Of a stretch of 64,000 bases of DNA, positions 5,992 through 49,336 are shown in pieces. The stretch lies in the NCBI GenBank assembly GCA_025774935.1, contig JALGZK010000002.1, forward strand, positions 298,254 to 362,253, given 5' to 3'. The position numbers and the translations under genes were made by a program. Under the pieces are notes generated by a model. That model saw only the letters and a list, made by a program, of their open reading frames with translations, was not told where the DNA came from and ran no database searches. This stretch comes from a bacterium. GTDB lineage: Bacteria > Joyebacterota > Joyebacteria > Joyebacterales > Joyebacteraceae. Position 1 is the first letter of the stretch. The number at the start of each line of letters is the position of its first letter.

Positions 5992-7305
5992 ATGGGAATG
6001 CCTGCGAGGGAGTCGATCCGGAAACACGTCCTCATCGGGACGTCTGCGGGGAAGGGCGAGGAGAGGCTCGTTGCCTGGCTGAAGGAGGCCGGCTACGTGT
6101 CGTGCGTCTGTTGCGACCCCTCCAATATCGCGCAGACTACCGCCCGGGAGATTCCCGACCTCGTCGTCCTGACCGAGTCGCTGGGGATGTCGGACCAGCA
6201 CCGCGCGATCCAGAAGCTCGAGGACGACGGGCGGACCCGCAAGATCCCCGTCCTGGCTCTCCTCAGGAGAGGCGAGGACCCCAACGAACCATCCCTTCGC
6301 CGCAGCTTCCGGATCGACTTCATGACCGAGCCTGCGGGGAGCACTCAGTTCCTCTCCCGTGTCAGAGCCATGCTCCGGATCGCTGACGACGAGAAGAAGC
6401 CAGGTGGCGGCGGCGAGCGGGACGGCCTGACGAAGCTCTATAATAGACGCTATCTCGACGAACGGATCGAGAAGGAGATTGAGCGCGCGCGCCGGTACTC
6501 CCGAAGCGTCGCGTGCATCATGGTCGACATCGACAACTTCCAGACGATCAACGCCGAGCATGGGTACAAGGCCGGAGACGAGATCCTGAAGGCACTCGCG
6601 GACATGCTCCTCTCGGAGACGCGCCTCCCCGACACGGTGGCGCGGTTCGGAAGCGAGGAGTTCGTGCTGATCCTCCCCGAGACGGAGGGGGCGGCGGCGG
6701 AAGGGCTGTCGGAGCGTCTTCGCAGATCGTTCGCGGAGCTCCGGCTGGGTGATGATGAGGAGGGGCCCGGCGCGACCATCAGCTGTGGCGTCGCCTCGTA
6801 CCCAGACCACGCGAGCGACGCGACGACGCTCATCCGAATGGCGAGCTCTGCCGTCTATCAGGCGCAGCAGGAAGGACAGAACTGCACCGTGGTGGCGTTC
6901 GGCGAGAAGAAGGACGAGGAGTGGCCGCGCGTCGACACCGCCGCGACGATCCTCCTGGTTGAGGATAACGACTACAACCGCACGGTGGCGTCTCTCGTGC
7001 TGCGCGCCAGCGGCTACGAGGTTATCGAGGCTTCGGACGCGGCGACGGCGATCTCCCTTGCCAGGGCGGTTCTCCCGGACCTCGTGATCATCGACGTCAA
7101 CCTCCACGGTGTGAGCGGCCTCGAAGCGACCAAGCAGCTCGTGGGGATGAGCGAGACGAAGGACATTCCGATCGTCGCCCTCACGACGAAGGATATGCCC
7201 GGCGACCTGGAGCAGCTCGTCGCCGCAGGCTGTCGCGGGTACATCACCAAGCCGATCGACACGAACAACCTCGCGACGCAGATCGAGACCTACCTGCACG
7301 GCTAG
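5992..7305 (+). CDS. REC-GGDEF-REC response regulator, probable diguanylate cyclase
   Basis: A 437-residue cytoplasmic signalling protein. Residues 10-130 form a receiver-like domain in which the phospho-acceptor position is not Asp (LVVLTESLG), so it is probably a pseudo-receiver. Residues 143-305 are a GGDEF domain. Its active-site motif reads GSEEF (220-224), with Ser in place of the second Gly, while the inhibitory I-site RLPD (211-214) sits exactly five residues upstream. Metal-binding Asp (MVDIDNF) is present. Residues 318-435 are a canonical receiver with D368 in IIDVN and K420 in TKPID. The intact I-site argues that it makes and is feedback-inhibited by c-di-GMP; the Ser substitution makes activity less certain. 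The ATG at 5992 follows GGGGGAG. A sigma-54 promoter lies upstream. Confidence 0.88.
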   Translation: MGMPARESIRKHVLIGTSAGKGEERLVAWLKEAGYVSCVCCDPSNIAQTTAREIPDLVVLTESLGMSDQHRAIQKLEDDGRTRKIPVLALLRRGEDPNEPSLRRSFRIDFMTEPAGSTQFLSRVRAMLRIADDEKKPGGGGERDGLTKLYNRRYLDERIEKEIERARRYSRSVACIMVDIDNFQTINAEHGYKAGDEILKALADMLLSETRLPDTVARFGSEEFVLILPETEGAAAEGLSERLRRSFAELRLGDDEEGPGATISCGVASYPDHASDATTLIRMASSAVYQAQQEGQNCTVVAFGEKKDEEWPRVDTAATILLVEDNDYNRTVASLVLRASGYEVIEASDAATAISLARAVLPDLVIIDVNLHGVSGLEATKQLVGMSETKDIPIVALTTKDMPGDLEQLVAAGCRGYITKPIDTNNLATQIETYLHG

Positions 7306-7375
7306 CGGCTTGGTGTGAGCGTGCCGCGAGAGAGCCGCGCCGCCACAAAAGAAGAGCAGAGTACGACCGCACCCG

Positions 7376-7396
7376 GCCGGCGGACTCCCCGCCGGC
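7376..7396 (+). terminator. Short hairpin after the GGDEF gene
   Basis: An 8-bp perfect stem (GCCGGCGG at 7376-7383 with CCGCCGGC at 7389-7396) and 5-nt loop, 71 nt after the stop codon, with no T-tract. It may be a terminator or only GC-rich structure. Confidence 0.35.
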
Positions 7397-7488
7397 TGGC
7401 GTGTATTCGCGCGTCGGGCGCGGGGTGGCTTCTGTGGTAGGATGTGGCGTGGCGCTCGTCGATCGATGCCGTGCTCACGGGAGGCACC

Positions 7489-9030
7489 ATGGCCGCCATC
7501 CCTTCTCGTCCCCGAATGACCCGCTCCACCTCTGGACGCTGCGTTCCGGTGCTCGCCCTCCTCACGCTCATCGCGCTCGCAGTCGTGATGCTCTCCGGTT
7601 GCGCCTCGAAGAGAGAGGGTCGCGTCGCCGAGCCCGCTGCGGCCGCCGGATCGTGGGAGTGCGCCGTCGTGGACGGTGACCTCGACGCACCGTGGTACGC
7701 GAGAGAGGCGGGGTCCTGGTGGAACGATTCCGGCAGCTACTTCATCGTGCACCGCTCGTCGCCGGAGTCTCTCGTTTTGGCCGCCGACCCCGGCGCCGCC
7801 GCGTTGCTGCCGGAGACCACCGAAGACGCCGCGGTGTGGGAGGCCGTCGACGCCGGCGCCTCAGATGTCCTGAGACTTCTGGGGTTGCGGGATGTGGAGT
7901 ACACGGCGTCCGAGGGCGCGCGACTGAGGACGCGGACCTCTCGCGCCCTCGTCGGTGGCCGCCAGCCGGAGTTCCCACGCGCCCAGCTGGCGGGGCTCGT
8001 GACCGAGCGGTGCTCGGTGGGTCACGGCGCGGTCGAGACGTGGCGTGCGACGATACTCCTCGAGTACCCCGCGGCTTTCCTTCAGGGCGACGCGAACAAC
8101 GCCCGCTGGGAGGGCCAGCGGCTTGAGAGCGAGGCAGGCGTCCTCTACGACTCCGCAAGGTCGTTCTTCGGCGAGGGGCTCTGGCTCGAAGGGCTCATCG
8201 AGCTCGCCGCGGCGAGGCGGCTCCTCGAACGTGCAGCGAGGCCGCTCGAAGCGAACGGCCTCGTCGCCAGGATCGAGGAGATGATGGACTGGGCCCGTCA
8301 CGCGGTTGTGGTCGAGCCCGTCAGCGCGACGGCGGTAGTCGAGATCGGTGCCAGGGAAGCAGCGACCGCCGAGTTCGCTTGTCACTACGAGTGGGACGGG
8401 CGACGGATCGCTGCTACGCGCGTGCCGATCGAGTTCGAGGCGCGCGGCTTCCGGGCGGTCCTGTCGTGCGATGTCGAGAGCGATGGGAACGGAGCTGCGA
8501 AGTGCCGCATTCTCTCTGCGTACGGAGAGCCGGGATCGTACGAGATCGTTCCCGTACTGAACGCGAGGGTCGTCTCCGCGGCCGTCGGTCACCCGCTCTG
8601 GGGGCGCGCCGCTCTCGATGAGGGAGGTGTGGTTCAGGTGTTCCTCGTCGCGGGCGCCCACGCTGTGACCGTCTGTCTGGAGCTCGACGGTGCGGACGCG
8701 CAGGATGGAGCGCAGTTCCGTTCCGGGTACAACCGGCGAATGGAGGCGGGCGGCTTCGGTGTGGGCGAGTGCGGGCCCGACACCGACGTGCTCGTTCGGG
8801 CCGCAGTGGGAGTATCGTCCGGGCAGCAGGGGGAGGAGTGGCATGCCGTCGCGGCCGTCGACGCGTCGGCCTTCGACCAGCGCTCCGCGCGGACTCTCGG
8901 AGAAGCGAAGATCACCGTGGCAGAGTCGTCGCCCGACGCCGCACGGGACGCGGAGGTTCTGGCGCTGAAGGAGCTGGGGCGGCTCGTCGCGGCCTACTAC
9001 TCGAGGAGGATTCTCGCGGCAGGCCCGTAG
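7489..9030 (+). CDS. Lipoprotein of unknown function
   Basis: A 513-residue protein with an N-terminal hydrophobic segment (CVPVLALLTLIALAVVML) followed by lipobox LSGC, so it should be lipidated and membrane-anchored. The ATG at 7489 follows GGGAGG at good distance; a longer reading from 7444 would put an implausible extension before the signal. The body has an alpha-rich stretch (about 205-275: VLYDSARSFFGEGLWLEGLIELAAARRLL) with TPR-like spacing, then a beta-rich half with Cys pairs, and an Ala-rich helical end. I do not recognise a family. It converges on the gene at 8997-9803, sharing 34 bp of 3' overlap. Confidence 0.75.
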   Translation: MAAIPSRPRMTRSTSGRCVPVLALLTLIALAVVMLSGCASKREGRVAEPAAAAGSWECAVVDGDLDAPWYAREAGSWWNDSGSYFIVHRSSPESLVLAADPGAAALLPETTEDAAVWEAVDAGASDVLRLLGLRDVEYTASEGARLRTRTSRALVGGRQPEFPRAQLAGLVTERCSVGHGAVETWRATILLEYPAAFLQGDANNARWEGQRLESEAGVLYDSARSFFGEGLWLEGLIELAAARRLLERAARPLEANGLVARIEEMMDWARHAVVVEPVSATAVVEIGAREAATAEFACHYEWDGRRIAATRVPIEFEARGFRAVLSCDVESDGNGAAKCRILSAYGEPGSYEIVPVLNARVVSAAVGHPLWGRAALDEGGVVQVFLVAGAHAVTVCLELDGADAQDGAQFRSGYNRRMEAGGFGVGECGPDTDVLVRAAVGVSSGQQGEEWHAVAAVDASAFDQRSARTLGEAKITVAESSPDAARDAEVLALKELGRLVAAYYSRRILAAGP

Positions 9031-9820: not shown

Positions 9821-11080
9821 TCACTCGGGTTCGGGCAGGGGCCGCTGGTTCAGAAGGAGGTCCTCAACCCTTCCGCGCTTCCTCGCCTCATGCATCTCTC
9901 CGTCGAGAACCAGCGCCTCCGCCGGCGTCGCGTGGGAAAGGAACAGCTGAGGGCTCATCGAGTACCCGTACGCGCCGGCGTTGAAGATCCCGACGAGGTC
10001 TTCCAGTGCAACGTCCTCCGGGACCTCGATCTCCTGGCTCGTGATGTCGATTGGCGTGCAGAGCGGTCCGGCGACCTTCGCGGTCCCGCCGCCGGTCGAC
10101 GCTAACTTGTTGACTACCTTCGCCTGGTGCCTGACCTTCATGAGGACCGGCCGGACGAACTGGTTGATGCCGCCGTCGGTGATGACGAATCTCTCTCCCC
10201 GCGACTCCTTGAGTTCGATGATCCGGGAGACGAAGACGCCGCTCTCGGAGAGAAGGTACCTGCCGAGTTCCAGGATGAGGCGGGAGTCGCTCCTGCTGGA
10301 GAACGGCCGGAAGACATCCTCGACGGCCGCGCCGAGTGCCGGCATATCGAGCGACGCTTCCTCTTCATAGTGCGGGACGCCCAGTCCGCCTCCGAAGTCG
10401 ATTGCGACGAGCTCGGTTCCGGTGACGCTCTCCACGTGGTCCGCGACGGCGAGCGTCCGCTTCGCGTTCTCTATGATCTCGTCCTCGTGCAGGATCTGGC
10501 TCGCCGTGTAGACGTGTATTCCCACAATCTCGATCGCGCGCTTGTCCCACGACTTCCCTAGGCGGTCGAGCTTCTCCTCGTCGATCCCGAACTTGCTCGG
10601 ACCTCCGGCCATCCTCTCGTGGAGAGGACCCGCGGAGCCGCCGCCGGACTTCGTGAGCCCCACCGACGTGTTGATGCGGAGCGCGACGCGCGCGGGCACG
10701 CCGACGAGCTTCGAGATATGCGCGATGTGCTCGAGCTCGCGGAACGACTCGGCGTTGATCGCGTAGATCCCAGAGATGATCGCTTCCTCGAGCTCCCGGT
10801 CGGATTTGCCGGGGCCGGCGAAGACGATATCGAGCGGGTCGTAGCCTGCCTCTCGCGCGAGGAAGAGCTCTCCTCCGGATGCTATCTCGGAGCCCGCGCC
10901 GAGCGACCTGAGCAGGCCGATGAGCGCGAGGGAAGGGTTCGCCTTCATCGAGTAGAACACGTCGAACGACGGGAACGACCTCCGGAGCGTCTCGTACCGC
11001 TCACGGATCATGTTCCCGTCGTAGACGAACAAGGGCGTGCCGAACTGGCGGACGATCTCCGTCACGGGTACGCCGCCCAC
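9821..11080 (-). CDS. PLP-dependent group IV decarboxylase, BtrK/LysA family
   Basis: A fold-type III decarboxylase. The PLP lysine is in VFYSMKANPS and the glycine loop is DFGGGLGVPH. The C-terminal active site reads GPLCTPID and GAYGYSMSPQLFLSHATPAE. In true diaminopimelate decarboxylases the Cys motif is normally CESGD and the end is SxYN-R-P. The GPLCTPxD/FLSH form is what I associate with BtrK (glutamyl-carrier-protein decarboxylase) and exosortase-associated decarboxylases, so lysA is not a safe name and the substrate is open. The GTG at 11080 lacks a ribosome-binding site. The frame extends to CTG 11117-11119, where AAGGAGG lies 4 nt upstream. The added residues (start LLRNFTQTDGVLEV) match the usual family N-terminus, so the real start is probably the CTG. 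Confidence 0.82.
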   Translation of the reverse strand: MGGVPVTEIVRQFGTPLFVYDGNMIRERYETLRRSFPSFDVFYSMKANPSLALIGLLRSLGAGSEIASGGELFLAREAGYDPLDIVFAGPGKSDRELEEAIISGIYAINAESFRELEHIAHISKLVGVPARVALRINTSVGLTKSGGGSAGPLHERMAGGPSKFGIDEEKLDRLGKSWDKRAIEIVGIHVYTASQILHEDEIIENAKRTLAVADHVESVTGTELVAIDFGGGLGVPHYEEEASLDMPALGAAVEDVFRPFSSRSDSRLILELGRYLLSESGVFVSRIIELKESRGERFVITDGGINQFVRPVLMKVRHQAKVVNKLASTGGGTAKVAGPLCTPIDITSQEIEVPEDVALEDLVGIFNAGAYGYSMSPQLFLSHATPAEALVLDGEMHEARKRGRVEDLLLNQRPLPEPE

Positions 11081-11167
11081 CTCGAGAACGCCGTCGGTCT
11101 GTGTGAAGTTCCTGAGCAGAAGGCCTCCTTCGGCGGGGCGCGCGCCCCGCTCCGCGAACGACCGGCG

Positions 11168-11974
11168 TCATCCCCTCCGGAAGACGTCGATCCTGGTGGT
11201 TCCACCGAAGATGTAGAACGGGAACGGCTCGGCGATCGCGCTGTCGACGCCGAAGCGTATGTACTCCTCGCAGAGGTTCGCGCCCGTCTCACAGAACATG
11301 ACGAGACGCGTCCCCCCGCGCTTCGCGGCTTTGAAGATGTCCTCCATCGTATCGGTCGAGATGATCATGCCCGTCATGACGGCGACGTCGCACTCCTCGA
11401 CGAACTCGACGGTCCTCTCTTCGTCGAAGATAGGGATGCCGCCGATCTCCGAGCCGACCAGGACGGGGTCTTCGTCGGTCCCGACCACTTCGATCCCGCG
11501 CTCGGTGAGCGCCTTGATGATGTTCCCGATCACACCTACGTTGACCACGCGGCCGCCCTCGATGCCCATCATCTCGAGCTGGCGAAGGACCTCGTTCACG
11601 ACGATGCCGCTGCGCCAGAGCGCCTTCTCTCCGGACGTCCCGGTCATCGTGAACGACTCGTCCGGGTGCTTCTCGAACGCGGAGTACATCGCGTCGACCG
11701 CCGCCACCTCGAAACAGCGGTACTTGTGCTCGACGGTCCGGGCGTCCTTGCCGAGAAGGTAGAAGCCCTCGGTGAGCGCCGGAATCGTCGAGCAGTAGCA
11801 GGCGCCCTCCCCGACGGTCTGGATGATGAGGTAGGTGTAGTTGAACGTCCGCTCGGCAGGGTTCGGCCGGAAGAGGAGATCGGTCCGCCACAGACCGCGG
11901 ATGCGGAAGTCCTCGTCGGGCATCCCCTTGCTCCTCTTGACTGCTGTTCTCTTGAGTTCCTTGATGTACTCCAA
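11168..11974 (-). CDS. Rossmann-like protein resembling DUF364 (putative metal-chelation domain)
   Basis: A 268-residue soluble protein starting at TTG with GAGGGG upstream. The second half has a Rossmann-like pattern: VVNVGVIGNIIKALTERGIE, then a late strand VAVMTGMIISTDTMEDIF, then LVMFCETGANLCEEYIRFG. This order resembles DUF364, the putative heavy-metal chelation domain family with a statement of type 'VIITGTTLVNGT'. The first half carries a Gly-Glu-Gly-Ala-Cys-Tyr-Cys segment and may be the family's small N-terminal domain. It is followed 87 nt later by the decarboxylase and is probably cotranscribed. The pair could modify or bind a small amino-acid-derived metabolite. The family assignment is by eye and of moderate certainty; no catalytic residues can be named. 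Confidence 0.65.
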   Translation of the reverse strand: MEYIKELKRTAVKRSKGMPDEDFRIRGLWRTDLLFRPNPAERTFNYTYLIIQTVGEGACYCSTIPALTEGFYLLGKDARTVEHKYRCFEVAAVDAMYSAFEKHPDESFTMTGTSGEKALWRSGIVVNEVLRQLEMMGIEGGRVVNVGVIGNIIKALTERGIEVVGTDEDPVLVGSEIGGIPIFDEERTVEFVEECDVAVMTGMIISTDTMEDIFKAAKRGGTRLVMFCETGANLCEEYIRFGVDSAIAEPFPFYIFGGTTRIDVFRRG

Positions 11975-12102
11975 GGTCCCCTCTTCGGTTGATGTCAGGC
12001 CGCTCCGGATTCCGCGGCAAGAGGCCGGCTCCGGGGAATATACCTGCCCGCACCCGCTCCGTCAATCCGACCGCCCCGGGGCGCGGGATGCCGCGGAGCC
12101 GG

Positions 12103-15100
12103 TCACTTCAGGAAGACGACCTTGCGCTGGAAACCCTGGTCGCCTATGCGAGCCCGCACGAAGTAGATGCCGCTCGCCACCCGCTCTCCGCTCGAGTTGG
12201 TGCCGTCCCACTCCAGGAAGTAGGTGCCGGCGTCCGCGCCCGTCTCCTCGAGCAACGCGACGCGGCGGCCGGCGACGTCGTAGATGCCGACGGCGACCCA
12301 CTGTTCGTCGGTTCCGACCGAGTACGCCAGCTCGACCAGGTCGCGGAACGGGTTCGGGTGGGGGAGCGAAAGCCCGCCGCCCGGCGGGCACGGAGGTACG
12401 TCGACATCCCAAGGCCCCCTCAACGTCGTTCCTCCCCACCGCTCGACTACCGCCAGACGATACGAGTAGACCGTTGCAGCGGCGACAGCCTCGTCGACGA
12501 AGTCGTACCGTCCGTTCGGTCCGGCCACGAGGAGCTCGTCGTTCAGTCGCTCCCAGGCGTCGGTGGAGCCGGCGACACCCTCGCGCCTCTCGATCCGACA
12601 CCCCTTCGGGTCGTCGGGCGGGTCGAGATACCATGAGAATTCGACCGAACGCGGCGTCGCTTCCCAATCGAAGAAGACGAGGTCCGCGGAGGCCTGCCAC
12701 TCGTCAAGGCTCGCGAGAACCGTTCCGATCATCGTCGTCGCCTGCGGGGTCTCGAGGTAGTAGAACGGGAACCCGAACCACGCGAGCGTGCCGGTTCCGT
12801 CCGTCGGGAAGCGCGCGGTCGCGCAGGGCATCTCGTGGAGGGTGTCGTTCAGGTACGCGTCGAACAGGTAGAGCCTCGCCGTCGTGCCCAGAGGCCTCAC
12901 TGTCTCGCAGTACGGGATCCCCCCGAGCTCCTCGTACTCGTCGCCCCACTTCACGACCGTGTCGACGGGGACGTCGACGAATGCGGGTGGACCGACAGAG
13001 AGCCCTCCGAGGAACGCGTACCCGTACGTCGATGGCGAAGCCGGGTTCTGGTTGGCGCCCGCGTTCCTCAGGCTGTCGACGCCCACGTAGTCGTAGACGA
13101 ACTCGCCGGGAACGTAGCGTGGCGAGTAGTCGAACGGGCCGCTTCCCCCGAGGGTCGCGAGAGACGACTGTCCCTCGAGGATGAGGTTCCCGCCGGCCCG
13201 CACGTATCCCTCTATATTATGATATGCGGACTCGGCCTGCGCCGCCCTCAGGAACCCCCCGTTCCTGTCGAGCGTCCAGATGATGGTGCGGTACCTCCCG
13301 AGCTCCTCCATCGGCGGGAGGGTCGGGAAGCCTCCCTCGATGTGCTCCAGCGGGTCCCACACGTCGTGCTCGCGATCCGAGAGTATCGAGTCGTAGAACG
13401 CGTCGTGCAGCTCGTCGTCCACGGCCGAATCGAGCCAGTCGTCCACGCGAAGGAGGTCGCTGGACATCGGGGCCGCGACGGGCGCGAGCACGATGCGGCC
13501 GACCGTGGTCGCTCCGTTCTCGTCGCTGGCCAGGAAGTAGACCGCCGTGTCGCCCAGCGCCGGTCTCAGGACGAACTTGCGGGGCGTCTCCTCCAGGGCG
13601 GCCCACGCCGTGGAGTCGTTCACCGCGACCGCCGCGGAGTCGGACACGCCGCAGTACGAGGAGGCGTCGGTCGAGATCTCGAAGACGAGAAGCTCGTTCT
13701 CGAAGACGGAGACCGGGACGTCGTCCTCTTCGGTCCAACGCTCGACGAACACCCTCGTCTCCGGGAGGAAGTTCGTCTCGACAGTGATTGTGGGGTAGAG
13801 GAGTCTCGCCTCGAACGTGTGGCCGGTGGGCGACGGGTCGCGGGCGCCGTCGTCGTCGACCGCGCGCACGAGGAACCGGTACGTATCCTCGGACAAACCC
13901 TCGAGCGTGATGGAGCGCTGGCCGGCGGGAAGCGGGGTCCAGCTGCGGCCGGCGCCGCCGGAATCCTCGCGGCGGGTCGCGCCGTCGGGCTGCTCCACCG
14001 TGTACTCGTAGCCGACGACCTCGCCGTCGAAGTCGACGCCGTCCCACTCGAATGTCGGGCTGAGCGTGAGGGTCTCACGCGTGGCGGCGCAGTTCTCGAC
14101 GAGCGTCGTCTCGGGGAGGAGGTTCGGGTCCTCGCCGACGACTCCCGCGACTGCCGCGGTGGCCACCAGGTTCGTAGCGGCGATCGACCAGAGGAGGTCA
14201 GGGTCCACGTGATCGATGATGTCGTTCGGCGTGTGGAGGTACAGGTTGTGCCCGTTCGGGTCGGTGTCGACGACGTTGTAGCCGGCCTCCCAGAAGCTGT
14301 TCTGGTCGCTAGAGCCGATCGGCTGGACGGTCGTGTCGAACGGGTGCGCGGTGTAGGTGCGCGCCACGTCGGCGATGAAGGCGCCGACCGCGAGAGCCTG
14401 CGAGTCGGAGTAGACCGTCGCGAACGGAGCCTCCGCCGTCTCGACGCCGATGCAGTCAACGTTGAGATACAGGACGATGTCGAGGCTCTCTTCGACCGCG
14501 TCTGCGACGAACGCCCTGCTTCCCCACAGCCCGACCTCCTCGGCAGACCAGCAGGCGAAGATGACCGAGCGGTCGAGACCCACGTCCCTGAGGACGCGGG
14601 CAGCCTCGAGCACCGCCGCAGTACCCGTCGCGTTATCCTCGGCGCCCGGCGCGGGGGCGTCCGGGTCGGTGAAGTTCTCGTTGGTCACGGAATCGTAGTG
14701 TCCGCCGAGGATCACGTACTCCGTGGGCCTCGTGGTGCCCGGCTTGACCGCCACGACGTTCACCGCGCTGACCGAGTCCTGGAAAGTCCACGTTCGGAAC
14801 GTGTCGGTCCGGATGTCGGCGTAGCCGAGGGACGCGAACTCGTCCCGGATCCAGTACCCCGCGGCCCAGCACGAGTCGACTACGACGTAGCGGCTGACGA
14901 AGTCCTGGAGGCGCTGGATGGTGGCCATCATGTTGTCGGCGCTCGTGGAGTCGATGAGCGCCGCGATGGTCTCGTCCGAGGGTACCCGGAGCAGGAGATC
15001 GTCGGCGGGCCAGGACCGGGCGCGCGCCTCGGGCGGTCGGGTGTCCGGTGGGCGAGGGGCCGCCCCCAGCGTGAACGCGAGTGGTTCGCGGTCGGTGTGC

Positions 15101-46629: not shown

Positions 46630-47916
46630 ATGAGGACCACGTACCGCATCGTGCTACTGTGCGTGATGTTGGCGTTCATAGTGGCGGCGTTCGCCCCGGC
46701 GGCGTTCGCAACATCTCAGTGGGCGAGGAAGTACCAGGCCTCGTGCCGGGACTGCCACTCCGCGTTCCCGAGACTCAACCACTACGGCCAGCGGTTCATG
46801 CGGAACGGTTATCAGGATCCTGACGCGGACGAGGCTGACGGCGACACGTTCGAGAAGACGCAGATTAACGACGCCACGTTCATCGATAAGCTCGGGAACC
46901 TGTTCGGCGTCCGCTTGAGCGTCACGCCTATCGGCATCAAGACGAACAAGCTCACGGACGCCGACGGCAAGAAGCAGGACCAGATGGCCTACGGCAATAC
47001 CGACTGGGTCCAGTTCTTCGTCGCCGGGAGCATCTACAAGAACACGTCGATCTTCATCGAGATGGCGTTCGACGACCGCGGCTATCACTACAGCTGGTAT
47101 AAGTTCGGGTTCCACAACTGGTTCGACAGCACCTGGGGCAACCTCATCGTCGGAAACGTCCCGGCGAGGGACTACGGCTGCTACCCGAACCGCCTCAGGA
47201 TCATGGGGCCCGTCAAGGCGGACGTCTTCAACGTGAAGTCGTCCGGAGGCGCATCGTCCGGCGACATCGACGGGAACGCGCTGAACGCGAGCGGGTCGCG
47301 GCCGGCACTCCAGTACTACGGCTATCAGGGGCCGGTCCTCCTCTGGGGAGGCGTTAGTCCGGGCGACAACGGCAAGAGCTCGGACATCGGCTGGAACGCC
47401 AACGACAAGATCCACTACTGGGCTGGCGGCAGGCTCGAGGTGCCGACGGGCTCGGAGTGGGAAGGCACCGGCGTCTCCGCCTGGTACTACAACGGCACGG
47501 ATACGGGTGACGGTGGCGACAGGTATGGGCCGTACGAGAACGAGTACACGCGCACCACGTTCGACACCGAGGTGCGCTGGGGCGAGTTCGAGTTCATGGG
47601 AACGTACCTCATGGGCAAGGACGCGAACTGGGCGCTCGACGACACCGACACGGAGATCGAGTACAACGGCTACTCGCTCATCGGCGCGTACATGCAGGTG
47701 TTCCAGACCGGCCAGTCGCTCTACTACGTCCTCCAGTACGACAACGTCGACTCGGACGATGTGGAGAGCCTCGTGAAGCAGTACGTCACGCCGTCGATCT
47801 CGTGGTTCCCGAGAGAGAACATCCGCATCGGGCTCTATTCGAGATTCGACATGCGGGATGTCGAGGACGACGAGAAGCTCAACGAGTACTACATCAACAT
47901 CAGGACCATGTTCTAG
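46630..47916 (+). CDS. Outer-membrane porin carrying an N-terminal c-type heme motif
   Basis: A 428-residue protein: signal peptide to about residue 28 (AAFAT), then WARKYQASCRDCHSAFPRLN with heme-binding CRDCH at 39-43. The following GQRFMRNGYQ belongs to the same conserved segment. From about 85 to the end the chain is an amphipathic beta-barrel rich in Trp and Tyr, ending in Phe (INIRTMF). A heme-tagged barrel recalls Cyc2, the fused cytochrome-porin iron oxidase, although the segment around the heme motif differs and homology is not claimed. It could pass electrons across the outer membrane. ATG follows AAGGAGGGGGA. The next two genes encode further c-type cytochromes. Confidence 0.85.
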   Translation: MRTTYRIVLLCVMLAFIVAAFAPAAFATSQWARKYQASCRDCHSAFPRLNHYGQRFMRNGYQDPDADEADGDTFEKTQINDATFIDKLGNLFGVRLSVTPIGIKTNKLTDADGKKQDQMAYGNTDWVQFFVAGSIYKNTSIFIEMAFDDRGYHYSWYKFGFHNWFDSTWGNLIVGNVPARDYGCYPNRLRIMGPVKADVFNVKSSGGASSGDIDGNALNASGSRPALQYYGYQGPVLLWGGVSPGDNGKSSDIGWNANDKIHYWAGGRLEVPTGSEWEGTGVSAWYYNGTDTGDGGDRYGPYENEYTRTTFDTEVRWGEFEFMGTYLMGKDANWALDDTDTEIEYNGYSLIGAYMQVFQTGQSLYYVLQYDNVDSDDVESLVKQYVTPSISWFPRENIRIGLYSRFDMRDVEDDEKLNEYYINIRTMF

Positions 47917-47928
47917 GGGACGGCAGCG

Positions 47929-48411
47929 ATGAAGAAGCACCTGACGCTCTCGCTGGCCGTTGCTCTGATGATTCTTCCTCTTCTCCCGGCCACGGCGCCG
48001 GGAGAAGAGGGGGAACAGGAGCAGCTGCCCGAGGGCCAGACAGCGTTCATCAAGGCCAAGTGCAACCTCTGCCACACAGTTGTGGCAGCCGGGATTGGTG
48101 AGCCTCGCGAGGAGTCCGAGGAAGAGTCGGACATCGTCCTTCCGCCGGATCTCTCGACCGTCGGGTCGTTGCGTGAGGCCGAATGGCTCACGCTGTACCT
48201 TCAGAAGAAGGAGACGCTCGGCGACGAGAAGCACGTGAAGAAGTTCAAGGGGGAAGACGAAGACCTCGCGGCCATAATCGGCTGGCTCATGACCATGAAG
48301 GCTCCGGGCGACACGCTCGCAGCGGAGCCCGAGGCCGAGGAGGTTCCCGCGGAGGAGACTCCCACCGAGGAGGCTCCATCAGGGGAAGCACCCGCCGAAG
48401 AGACCGACTAG
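47929..48411 (+). CDS. Small periplasmic monoheme c-type cytochrome
   Basis: A 160-residue protein with signal peptide (about 1-25) and one heme motif CNLCH (45-49). A possible Met axial ligand is M121 or M123 in GWLMTMKAP, at the right place for a class I cytochrome c. After the fold, residues 130-160 are a low-complexity Pro/Ala/Glu/Thr tail with no structure. The gene starts 12 nt after the porin's stop. It probably shuttles electrons in the periplasm between the tetraheme membrane cytochrome and the heme-porin. Confidence 0.86.
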   Translation: MKKHLTLSLAVALMILPLLPATAPGEEGEQEQLPEGQTAFIKAKCNLCHTVVAAGIGEPREESEEESDIVLPPDLSTVGSLREAEWLTLYLQKKETLGDEKHVKKFKGEDEDLAAIIGWLMTMKAPGDTLAAEPEAEEVPAEETPTEEAPSGEAPAEETD

Positions 48412-48454
48412 ACTCGCCCAACGACGTCCGAGGAGAGGAGGGTCATAGCGCGGT

Positions 48455-49033
48455 ATGGCCTTTTTGCTGATTGCAGCCGCCATCGTTCTCGTCGTGCTCA
48501 TCCTGATCGTGAGGAGGGCGAGCGGGACATTGGCGACACGCCAGGGCAAGGTCCTGGCTCTCGTGGTGCTGGGGCTCCTGCCGATGATCTGGCTCGGCGG
48601 GACCATGAAGTACACGGACGCGGCAATGAAGAAGGTCGATTTCTGCGTCCGGTGCCACAGCATGGTCCCCTACGGTGAGAGTCTTCACGCGGACGATGAC
48701 TGGGCCCTCTCGGCGGTCCACTTCCAGAACAACCTGGTCGACCGGGAGAAGGCGTGCTACGTGTGCCACACGAGCTACGTGGCATTCGGGGGTCTGAAAG
48801 CCAAGCTCAGGGGGCTGCGCCACGTTCAGGCGCACTACTTGGGAGGGCACGAGGGGGAGATTGAACTGTACGAGCCGTACATCAACACCGACTGCCTCCA
48901 CTGCCACGGGGTAGCGCGATCGTTCCTGGAGGGCGGCGGACACCAGGGCTTCATGGATGAACTCCGGTCCGGCGAGACGTCGTGTCTGGAGTGCCACGAT
49001 GAGGCTCACTACTTCGAGGACGAAGATGCCTAG
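48455..49033 (+). CDS. Membrane-anchored tetraheme cytochrome, NapC/NirT-like
   Basis: A 192-residue protein with two hydrophobic segments (about 3-20 and 32-49) and four heme motifs: CVRCH (64-68), CYVCH (101-105), CLHCH (147-151) and CLECH (177-181). The FCVRCHSMVPYGESLH segment, membrane anchor and four hemes fit the NapC/NirT/NrfH quinol dehydrogenase superfamily, which takes electrons from menaquinol to periplasmic acceptors. NapC usually has one anchor helix, so the second hydrophobic segment is a variation. Its stop overlaps the next start by 8 bp. No nitrate or nitrite reductase gene is nearby. Confidence 0.87.
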   Translation: MAFLLIAAAIVLVVLILIVRRASGTLATRQGKVLALVVLGLLPMIWLGGTMKYTDAAMKKVDFCVRCHSMVPYGESLHADDDWALSAVHFQNNLVDREKACYVCHTSYVAFGGLKAKLRGLRHVQAHYLGGHEGEIELYEPYINTDCLHCHGVARSFLEGGGHQGFMDELRSGETSCLECHDEAHYFEDEDA

Positions 49034-49238
49034 TCTCTCAGCTTTGATGCCGTGGCGGCAGACAGACGAGCAGCTCATCCGCCGTGGAAGCATACTGGAG
49101 ATCGTCGGCATCGTGCTCCTCGCCATCACGGTGCTGGTGCACAACCCCCTGCTGATGGTCATCCTGCTCCCCCTCGGCGCACTCGTCGTACTGCTCGGGT
49201 GGGTCGCCTGGGCGTGGGCGTTCATGAGGAGTCTCTAG
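49026..49238 (+). CDS. Small two-helix membrane protein of the cytochrome cluster
   Basis: A 70-residue protein overlapping the tetraheme gene by 8 bp. Two membrane segments (about 22-39 and 43-66) with a short Pro-Leu-containing turn, and a short charged N-terminus. ATG 49047 is a second possible start. It carries no Cys or heme motif and belongs to no family that I recognise. The overlap suggests it is made with the tetraheme cytochrome and may stabilise it in the membrane. Confidence 0.65.
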   Translation: MPSLSALMPWRQTDEQLIRRGSILEIVGIVLLAITVLVHNPLLMVILLPLGALVVLLGWVAWAWAFMRSL

Positions 49239-49282
49239 GCCGAGGACCGGGCAGAGTACGGCCCGGACAACGGCTTCATACG

Positions 49283-49336
49283 GTGCCCCCTTTCCGACAC
49301 GGCTGACGCCGTGACGGGGAGGGGGTGCGTGTCTTC
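49283..49336 (+). terminator. Long hairpin after the cytochrome cluster
   Basis: About 20 paired bases with one A-A mismatch and a few G-T pairs: GTGCCCCCTTTCCGA-CACGGC, loop TGAC, GCCGTG-ACGGGGAGGGGGTGC. A pyrimidine run (TCTTCT) follows. The remainder of the gap 49337-49559 holds a TTGACG at 49425 without a matching -10 box and no gene that I can support. Confidence 0.6.

Follow-up and report, generated by a model that had tools for sequence, protein, structure and literature searches.

A four-gene heme-porin and cytochrome cluster

The window, by which we mean the whole 64,000-nucleotide stretch of bacterial DNA that was analysed, carries four genes on one strand that encode a porin with a heme-binding motif of its own, an exported monoheme cytochrome, a tetraheme cytochrome of the NapC/NirT type and a small membrane protein (Table 1). 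The intergenic spacings are +12, +43 and −8 nt; SecD/SecF lies upstream of the cluster, and a DUF4159 protein and a DUF4175-type protein are encoded downstream. The hairpin that trails the last gene folds at −61.8 kcal/mol, against −45.1 kcal/mol for shuffled sequences (z −4.5), and is absent from the list produced by the terminator scan. Open reading frame coordinates and the shuffle test agree with the initial annotation of this DNA on the four genes, their motifs, their spacings and the trailing hairpin.

Table 1. Features of the heme-porin cluster, in coordinates of the window
Feature	Position	Strand	Remarks
Heme-porin	46630..47916	+	428 aa; signal peptide at about residues 1-27, N-terminal heme segment, predicted barrel from residue 92
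Porin heme-binding motif CRDCH	46744..46758	+	residues 39-43, inside ATSQWARKYQASCRDCHSAFPRL
Exported monoheme cytochrome c	47929..48411	+	160 aa; CNLCH
Tetraheme NapC/NirT-type membrane cytochrome	48455..49033	+	192 aa; 4 CxxCH
Small membrane protein	49026..49238	+	70 aa; two hydrophobic segments
Strong hairpin, 3′ of the last gene	49278..49332	+	possible transcript end; no T-run

Predicted fold and heme site of the porin

The porin, which ends in IRTMF, has no Pfam match, no match in a PDB profile search with its alignment and no relative in a scan of IMG/VR. An AlphaFold2 model built on a 33-sequence alignment (pLDDT 84, pTM 0.82) predicts 16 strands, with a heme segment at residues 30–58 joined to the barrel by a low-confidence linker. 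Foldseek returns 16-strand porins as the best matches (OmpU, chitoporin, PorB and OprP). As a general rule for porins, both ends of the barrel lie in the periplasm when the strand number is even. Because a 16-strand barrel keeps the N-terminal segment periplasmic, the single heme of the porin is predicted to sit at the periplasmic mouth of the barrel; the heme of Cyc2 has been placed by the same argument (PMC8406198).

Across the 32 aligned family members, Trp31, Arg33, Lys34, Tyr35, Arg48 and Lys76 are invariant and His162 is present in 26, and no invariant His or Met lies near the heme besides the His of CxxCH. This would be compatible with an open heme site, at which an outer-membrane detoxification enzyme could reduce peroxide or NO with quinol-derived electrons supplied by the cytochrome, NapC-type and small genes (hereafter the trio) and without conserving energy; a host that lacks known oxygen reductases would also suit such an enzyme. 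We regard this role as highly improbable, since the porin has no enzyme homology and its repeated MtrAB and multiheme neighbours, described below, point instead to electron transfer across the outer membrane.

A porin class separate from Cyc2-motif proteins

The definition of Cyc2 (PMC8406198) combines AXPXFAR[Q/K][T/Y] before CXXCH, PXL after it and a 16-strand barrel. The window's porin shares with Cyc2 a signal peptide, one N-terminal CxxCH with PxL just after it (PRL, in CRDCHSAFPRL), a predicted 16-strand barrel and a length (428 aa) above the 365-aa minimum. It differs upstream of the heme motif, where AXPXFAR[Q/K][T/Y] is absent and [STA]xWxRKY, here ATSQWARKY, stands instead. The latter motif precedes CxxCH in 34 of 34 close relatives, and P.FAR[QK][TY] was found in 0 of the 32 aligned family members. 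In a maximum-likelihood tree of 55 proteins, a branch supported at 100/100 separates the 34 [STA]xWxRKY porins from seven proteins that carry the Cyc2 motif, none of them biochemically verified as Cyc2. A plasmid search for Cyc2 references yielded weak partial matches only. Motif and tree together support a porin class separate from Cyc2-motif proteins, the Cyc2 side being known here by its motif, and so bear out the earlier suggestion of a heme-porin class distinct from Cyc2.

Sequences lacking PXFAR[Q/K][T/Y] were excluded when the published Cyc2 database was built (PMC8406198), a rule by which this porin class would have been removed. In the literature that we searched, outside which most subscription papers lay, we found no description of the cluster or of the [STA]xWxRKY motif. 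Going by the titles of the records, members of the class occur in MAGs of Eisenbacteria, Kiritimatiellales, Neomarinimicrobiota, Aminicenantes, Arcobacter, Nitrospinota, Nitrospirae, Acidobacteria, Deltaproteobacteria, Lentisphaerae and Chlamydiae, a spread in which misassigned MAGs are possible, the Yanofskybacteria record above all. Deltaproteobacteria here corresponds to Myxococcota in the labels of the tree tool.

The cytochromes and the small membrane protein

The monoheme cytochrome matches PF00034 at 29.4 bits (cut-off 21.3). Among 13 relatives its His102 is invariant and no Met is conserved, which suggests His/His ligation of the heme. A low potential deduced from such ligation was considered and dropped, as the potentials of MtoD and PmcA contradict it: bis-His MtoD lies at +155 mV and His-Met PmcA at −143 mV (PMC13390432).

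The tetraheme protein matches PF03264 at 33.3 bits (cut-off 24.1), and its first heme motif, CVRCHSM, has the form CxxCHxM that is found at heme I of NrfH and some NapC (PMC13390432). The Met of this motif, Met70, is invariant in nine relatives and nearly invariant in 20, and His89, His123, His163 and His185 are invariant in the nine. The protein thereby shares with NapC, NirT, NrfH, CymA and ImoA the PF03264 domain, four hemes, CxxCHxM, conserved extra histidines and a conserved lysine. It differs from them in its membrane anchor: those proteins have one N-terminal membrane helix, whereas the window's protein has two hydrophobic helices (3–19 and 33–49), as do all nine aligned sequences. A structure model (pTM 0.61) contains long helices at 2–21 and 29–58; Foldseek found no usable match to this model, and a PDB profile search with the alignment found no match. 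The NrfH equivalog model scores the protein at 32.6 bits, against a cut-off of 134.2. The second N-terminal helix is an addition to the initial annotation.

Two features of gene order also distinguish this NapC type from the known proteins. It is usually preceded by a monoheme cytochrome, and in each complete cassette the small two-helix protein gene follows directly, overlapping the NapC stop. In a NapC tree, the sequences of the window's family, its genus included, group together (97/93), as expected for vertical descent.

Conservation of the gene order

The order porin, cytochrome, NapC, small gene is found in the window's genus (G002) and in at least five other lineages; in a second genome of the genus (G001), a contig break falls inside the porin. 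Complete cassettes occur at L006 (G082), L024 (Neomarinimicrobiota), L026 (SJ803, G215) and L041 (the Deltaproteobacteria MAG), and in an Acidobacteria MAG (L032) the NapC and small genes lie on the opposite strand beside the porin and cytochrome. An order that turns up again in at least five other lineages is no chance arrangement, and the neighbourhood survey supports a conserved four-gene system.

Strict porin and NapC-type matches coincide in three of five porin genera outside the window's own family (386 genomes). The NapC type occurs in 8 of about 314 genera overall, giving a co-occurrence P value of 1e-4 that serves as a guide only, the 386 genomes being related to an unknown degree. 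The co-occurrence expected of the four genes is strong but not obligatory, as many genomes hold the porin alone. Five further loci carry porin and cytochrome without this NapC nearby, about eleven carry porins with no cytochrome within 2.5 kb, and standalone porins, or porin genomes without this NapC type, are found in Aminicenantes, Arcobacter and several other groups. In another genus of the same family (G008), the SecF and DUF4159 genes seen in the window flank a porin that is 62% identical to the window's, and the trio is absent, which means either that the trio entered behind the porin in the window's genus or that the other genus lost it.

The porin beside other electron-transfer genes

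Elsewhere the porin class adjoins electron-transfer genes of other kinds. In a Chlamydiae MAG (L050, 7998–11229) and in G374 (L112), the porin is joined by a monoheme cytochrome of the Met type and by a large multiheme protein whose NapC domain (PF03264, 44.1 bits in L050) is combined with several membrane helices at the N-terminus, as has been described for ImcH (PMC6295460). The likeness to ImcH lies in this multi-helix NapC-domain protein beside the porin class; the window's cluster differs in lacking it and having the short tetraheme form instead. The C-terminal part of a similar NapC-domain multiheme protein lies upstream of the porin at L021, and at L034 the neighbour of the porin is an 11-heme protein that contains a PF03264 domain. 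At L042 (7983–12584, all on one strand), the porin is followed 151 nt downstream by a DmsE/MtrA-type decaheme cytochrome (266 bits; cut-off 192) and then by MtrB/PioB (PF11854, 284.5 bits).

This recurrence beside varied quinol dehydrogenases and MtrAB is the main evidence that the porin takes part in envelope electron transfer. These repeated neighbourhoods with MtrAB and multiheme cytochromes, genes of the extracellular-electron-transfer type, support that part of the reading in the initial annotation. In a Nitrospina MAG, an octaheme gene lies directly upstream of the heme-porin (L039, 5179–8193), and its product is about 35% identical to the second octaheme of the window's genome (L093).

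A module separable from the porin

The cytochrome, NapC and small genes form a module that is separable from the porin. In other genera of the window's family they are present without it. In G005 (L074, 520–7116), genes for a LysR-type regulator, the cytochrome, the NapC-type protein, the small protein, NqrA and further Nqr proteins follow one another, and on a second contig (L161) the Nqr genes continue and are followed by a gene for a 150-aa protein and one for an octaheme cytochrome. The same ingredients are present at L077, L080 and L082, and the Nqr genes beside the trio in these sister genera include NqrA and NqrF. The position of the trio beside Na+-NQR implies a flow from NADH through Na+-NQR and quinone to the NapC-type protein. 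The 150-aa protein is weakly rubrerythrin-like, and the arrangement as a whole is a candidate for a full NADH-to-octaheme respiratory cluster.

In other families the NapC type adjoins octaheme cytochromes (G130, G267 and G408), a DmsE/MtrA-type decaheme cytochrome with an MtrB-type barrel (G101, L083) and an MtrA-like heptaheme cytochrome (L164), which in G412 is followed by a 665-aa protein without a Pfam match. Two NapC-type tetraheme genes stand side by side at L085 (680–7376, G149), near genes for an MtrA-like heptaheme cytochrome, for a 674-aa protein that matches no Pfam family and for an 11-heme protein whose membrane part is of the cytochrome b561 type.

These neighbourhoods raise the question of whether the trio serves as a quinol dehydrogenase of general use and has as its true partner an octaheme protein, similar to HAO and hydrazine dehydrogenase, that reduces a periplasmic nitrogen oxide or a similar compound, the porin being incidental or a substrate channel. 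The trio or its NapC adjoins an octaheme or shares an Nqr cluster with one at L075, L079, L082, L084 and L163, loci that span sister genera and other families, and an octaheme ortholog, 76% identical to that of the sister-genus cluster, is encoded in the window's own genome (contig 37; L158, about 10904–12187). That gene, however, stands alone on its contig, with neither Nqr nor trio genes beside it; unrelated lineages repeat the linkage of porin and trio, and other quinol dehydrogenases accompany the porin at loci that have no adjacent octaheme. We therefore consider an octaheme as the real partner unlikely. The initial annotation pointed out that no terminal reductase lies beside the cluster; the porin-less trio beside an octaheme, together with the octaheme in the host's own genome, nevertheless makes a periplasmic terminal partner possible.

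The host genome

The assembly comprises 3.24 Mb and is 96% complete; what we say of it draws on single-family searches and on individual genome stretches. Neither a heme-copper oxidase (PF00115) nor a bd oxidase (PF01654) was found, in searches that returned their positive controls, nor were MtrB (PF11854) or the menaquinone gene PF02621 of the futalosine route. Three proteins of the molybdopterin family are similar to formate dehydrogenase or to members of the PhsA/DMSO-reductase group; no equivalog cut-off is reached by any of them, and their best matches are not nitrate reductases. Other multiheme proteins comprise two octahemes, a dodecaheme and a 13-heme protein, the dodecaheme at L092 (about 6924–8840) and the 13-heme protein at L094 (9675–10856). 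PF14537 matches proteins of this genome when scored directly, and its matchless genome search was not used as a negative. The host is an uncultured and apparently anaerobic bacterium.

These properties bear on the direction of electron flow. If the porin oxidised dissolved Fe(II) or some other donor in the manner of Cyc2, electrons would run inwards through the monoheme cytochrome and the NapC-type protein to quinone, a route to which the shared architecture (a single N-terminal CxxCH, PxL and a 16-strand barrel) lends some credit; NapC-type ImoA has also been proposed as a quinone reductase, the reverse direction, in Sideroxydans, and by analogy NapC-type proteins may run in reverse. Against this stand a 96% complete genome in which neither oxidase was found, molybdopterin-family proteins that are not nitrate reductases by best match, the missing Cyc2 signature, the grouping of the porin apart from Cyc2-motif proteins and the clustering of the trio with Na+-NQR in sister genera. 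Inward flow is, in our judgement, distinctly unlikely. The linkage of the porin class to quinol dehydrogenases, in a host without a known oxygen reductase, is a further difference from Cyc2.

A proposed outward respiratory branch

Three things speak for quinol oxidation with electrons flowing outwards: the NapC homology, the linkage to Nqr and the host's lack of oxygen reductases. Reading the cluster from its sequence, we somewhat favour a short anaerobic respiratory branch that would carry electrons from quinol through the NapC-type protein and the monoheme cytochrome to the porin heme and a soluble oxidant. By analogy with its family, the NapC-type tetraheme protein would oxidise quinol at the inner membrane, with the small two-helix protein as its probable membrane partner, given their strict linkage. 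Electrons would then pass to the soluble periplasmic monoheme cytochrome c, which would reduce the single c-type heme at the predicted periplasmic mouth of the porin, and this heme would in turn reduce a small soluble oxidant or redox shuttle entering the barrel from outside.

The initial annotation had described the six hemes of the cluster as a complete wire. That description fails: one heme alone cannot bridge the outer membrane, and the only heme of the porin is predicted on the periplasmic side of the 16-strand barrel. With one heme in this position, the barrel has to admit an oxidant from outside. Such a site would suit soluble Fe(III) complexes, flavins and quinone shuttles, and minerals or direct cell contact would fit it poorly. 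A dissolved compound entering the pore is thus a more likely partner than a mineral or another cell.

The proposed branch would work like an Mtr/Mto-type pathway in which the multiheme outer-membrane conduit is exchanged for a one-heme porin. The Mto cluster of Sideroxydans comprises a NapC-type tetraheme protein, monoheme cytochromes and an outer-membrane conduit (PMC13390432). With Mtr, Mto, Pio and Pcc systems the window's cluster shares an inner-membrane quinol dehydrogenase, a periplasmic cytochrome and a heme-bearing outer-membrane barrel. It differs from them in a barrel of 16 rather than 26 strands that carries one heme of its own, and in having no MtrA-type decaheme protein in the cluster and no MtrB in the genome.

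Discussion

Known outer-membrane electron exits are large multiheme proteins, and Cyc2, the one-heme porin already known, admits electrons from iron. We propose, more tentatively than the respiratory branch itself, that the porins described here may form a separate, multi-phylum heme-porin class that works in the direction opposite to Cyc2, as a minimal three-cytochrome exit that is served by interchangeable quinol dehydrogenases and reduces dissolved oxidants or shuttles. If the porin is tied to quinol oxidation, it would be the smallest known outer-membrane electron exit. Published screens that demand the Cyc2 motif would have missed the class and, if the proposal is true, more bacteria may respire extracellular or shuttle compounds.
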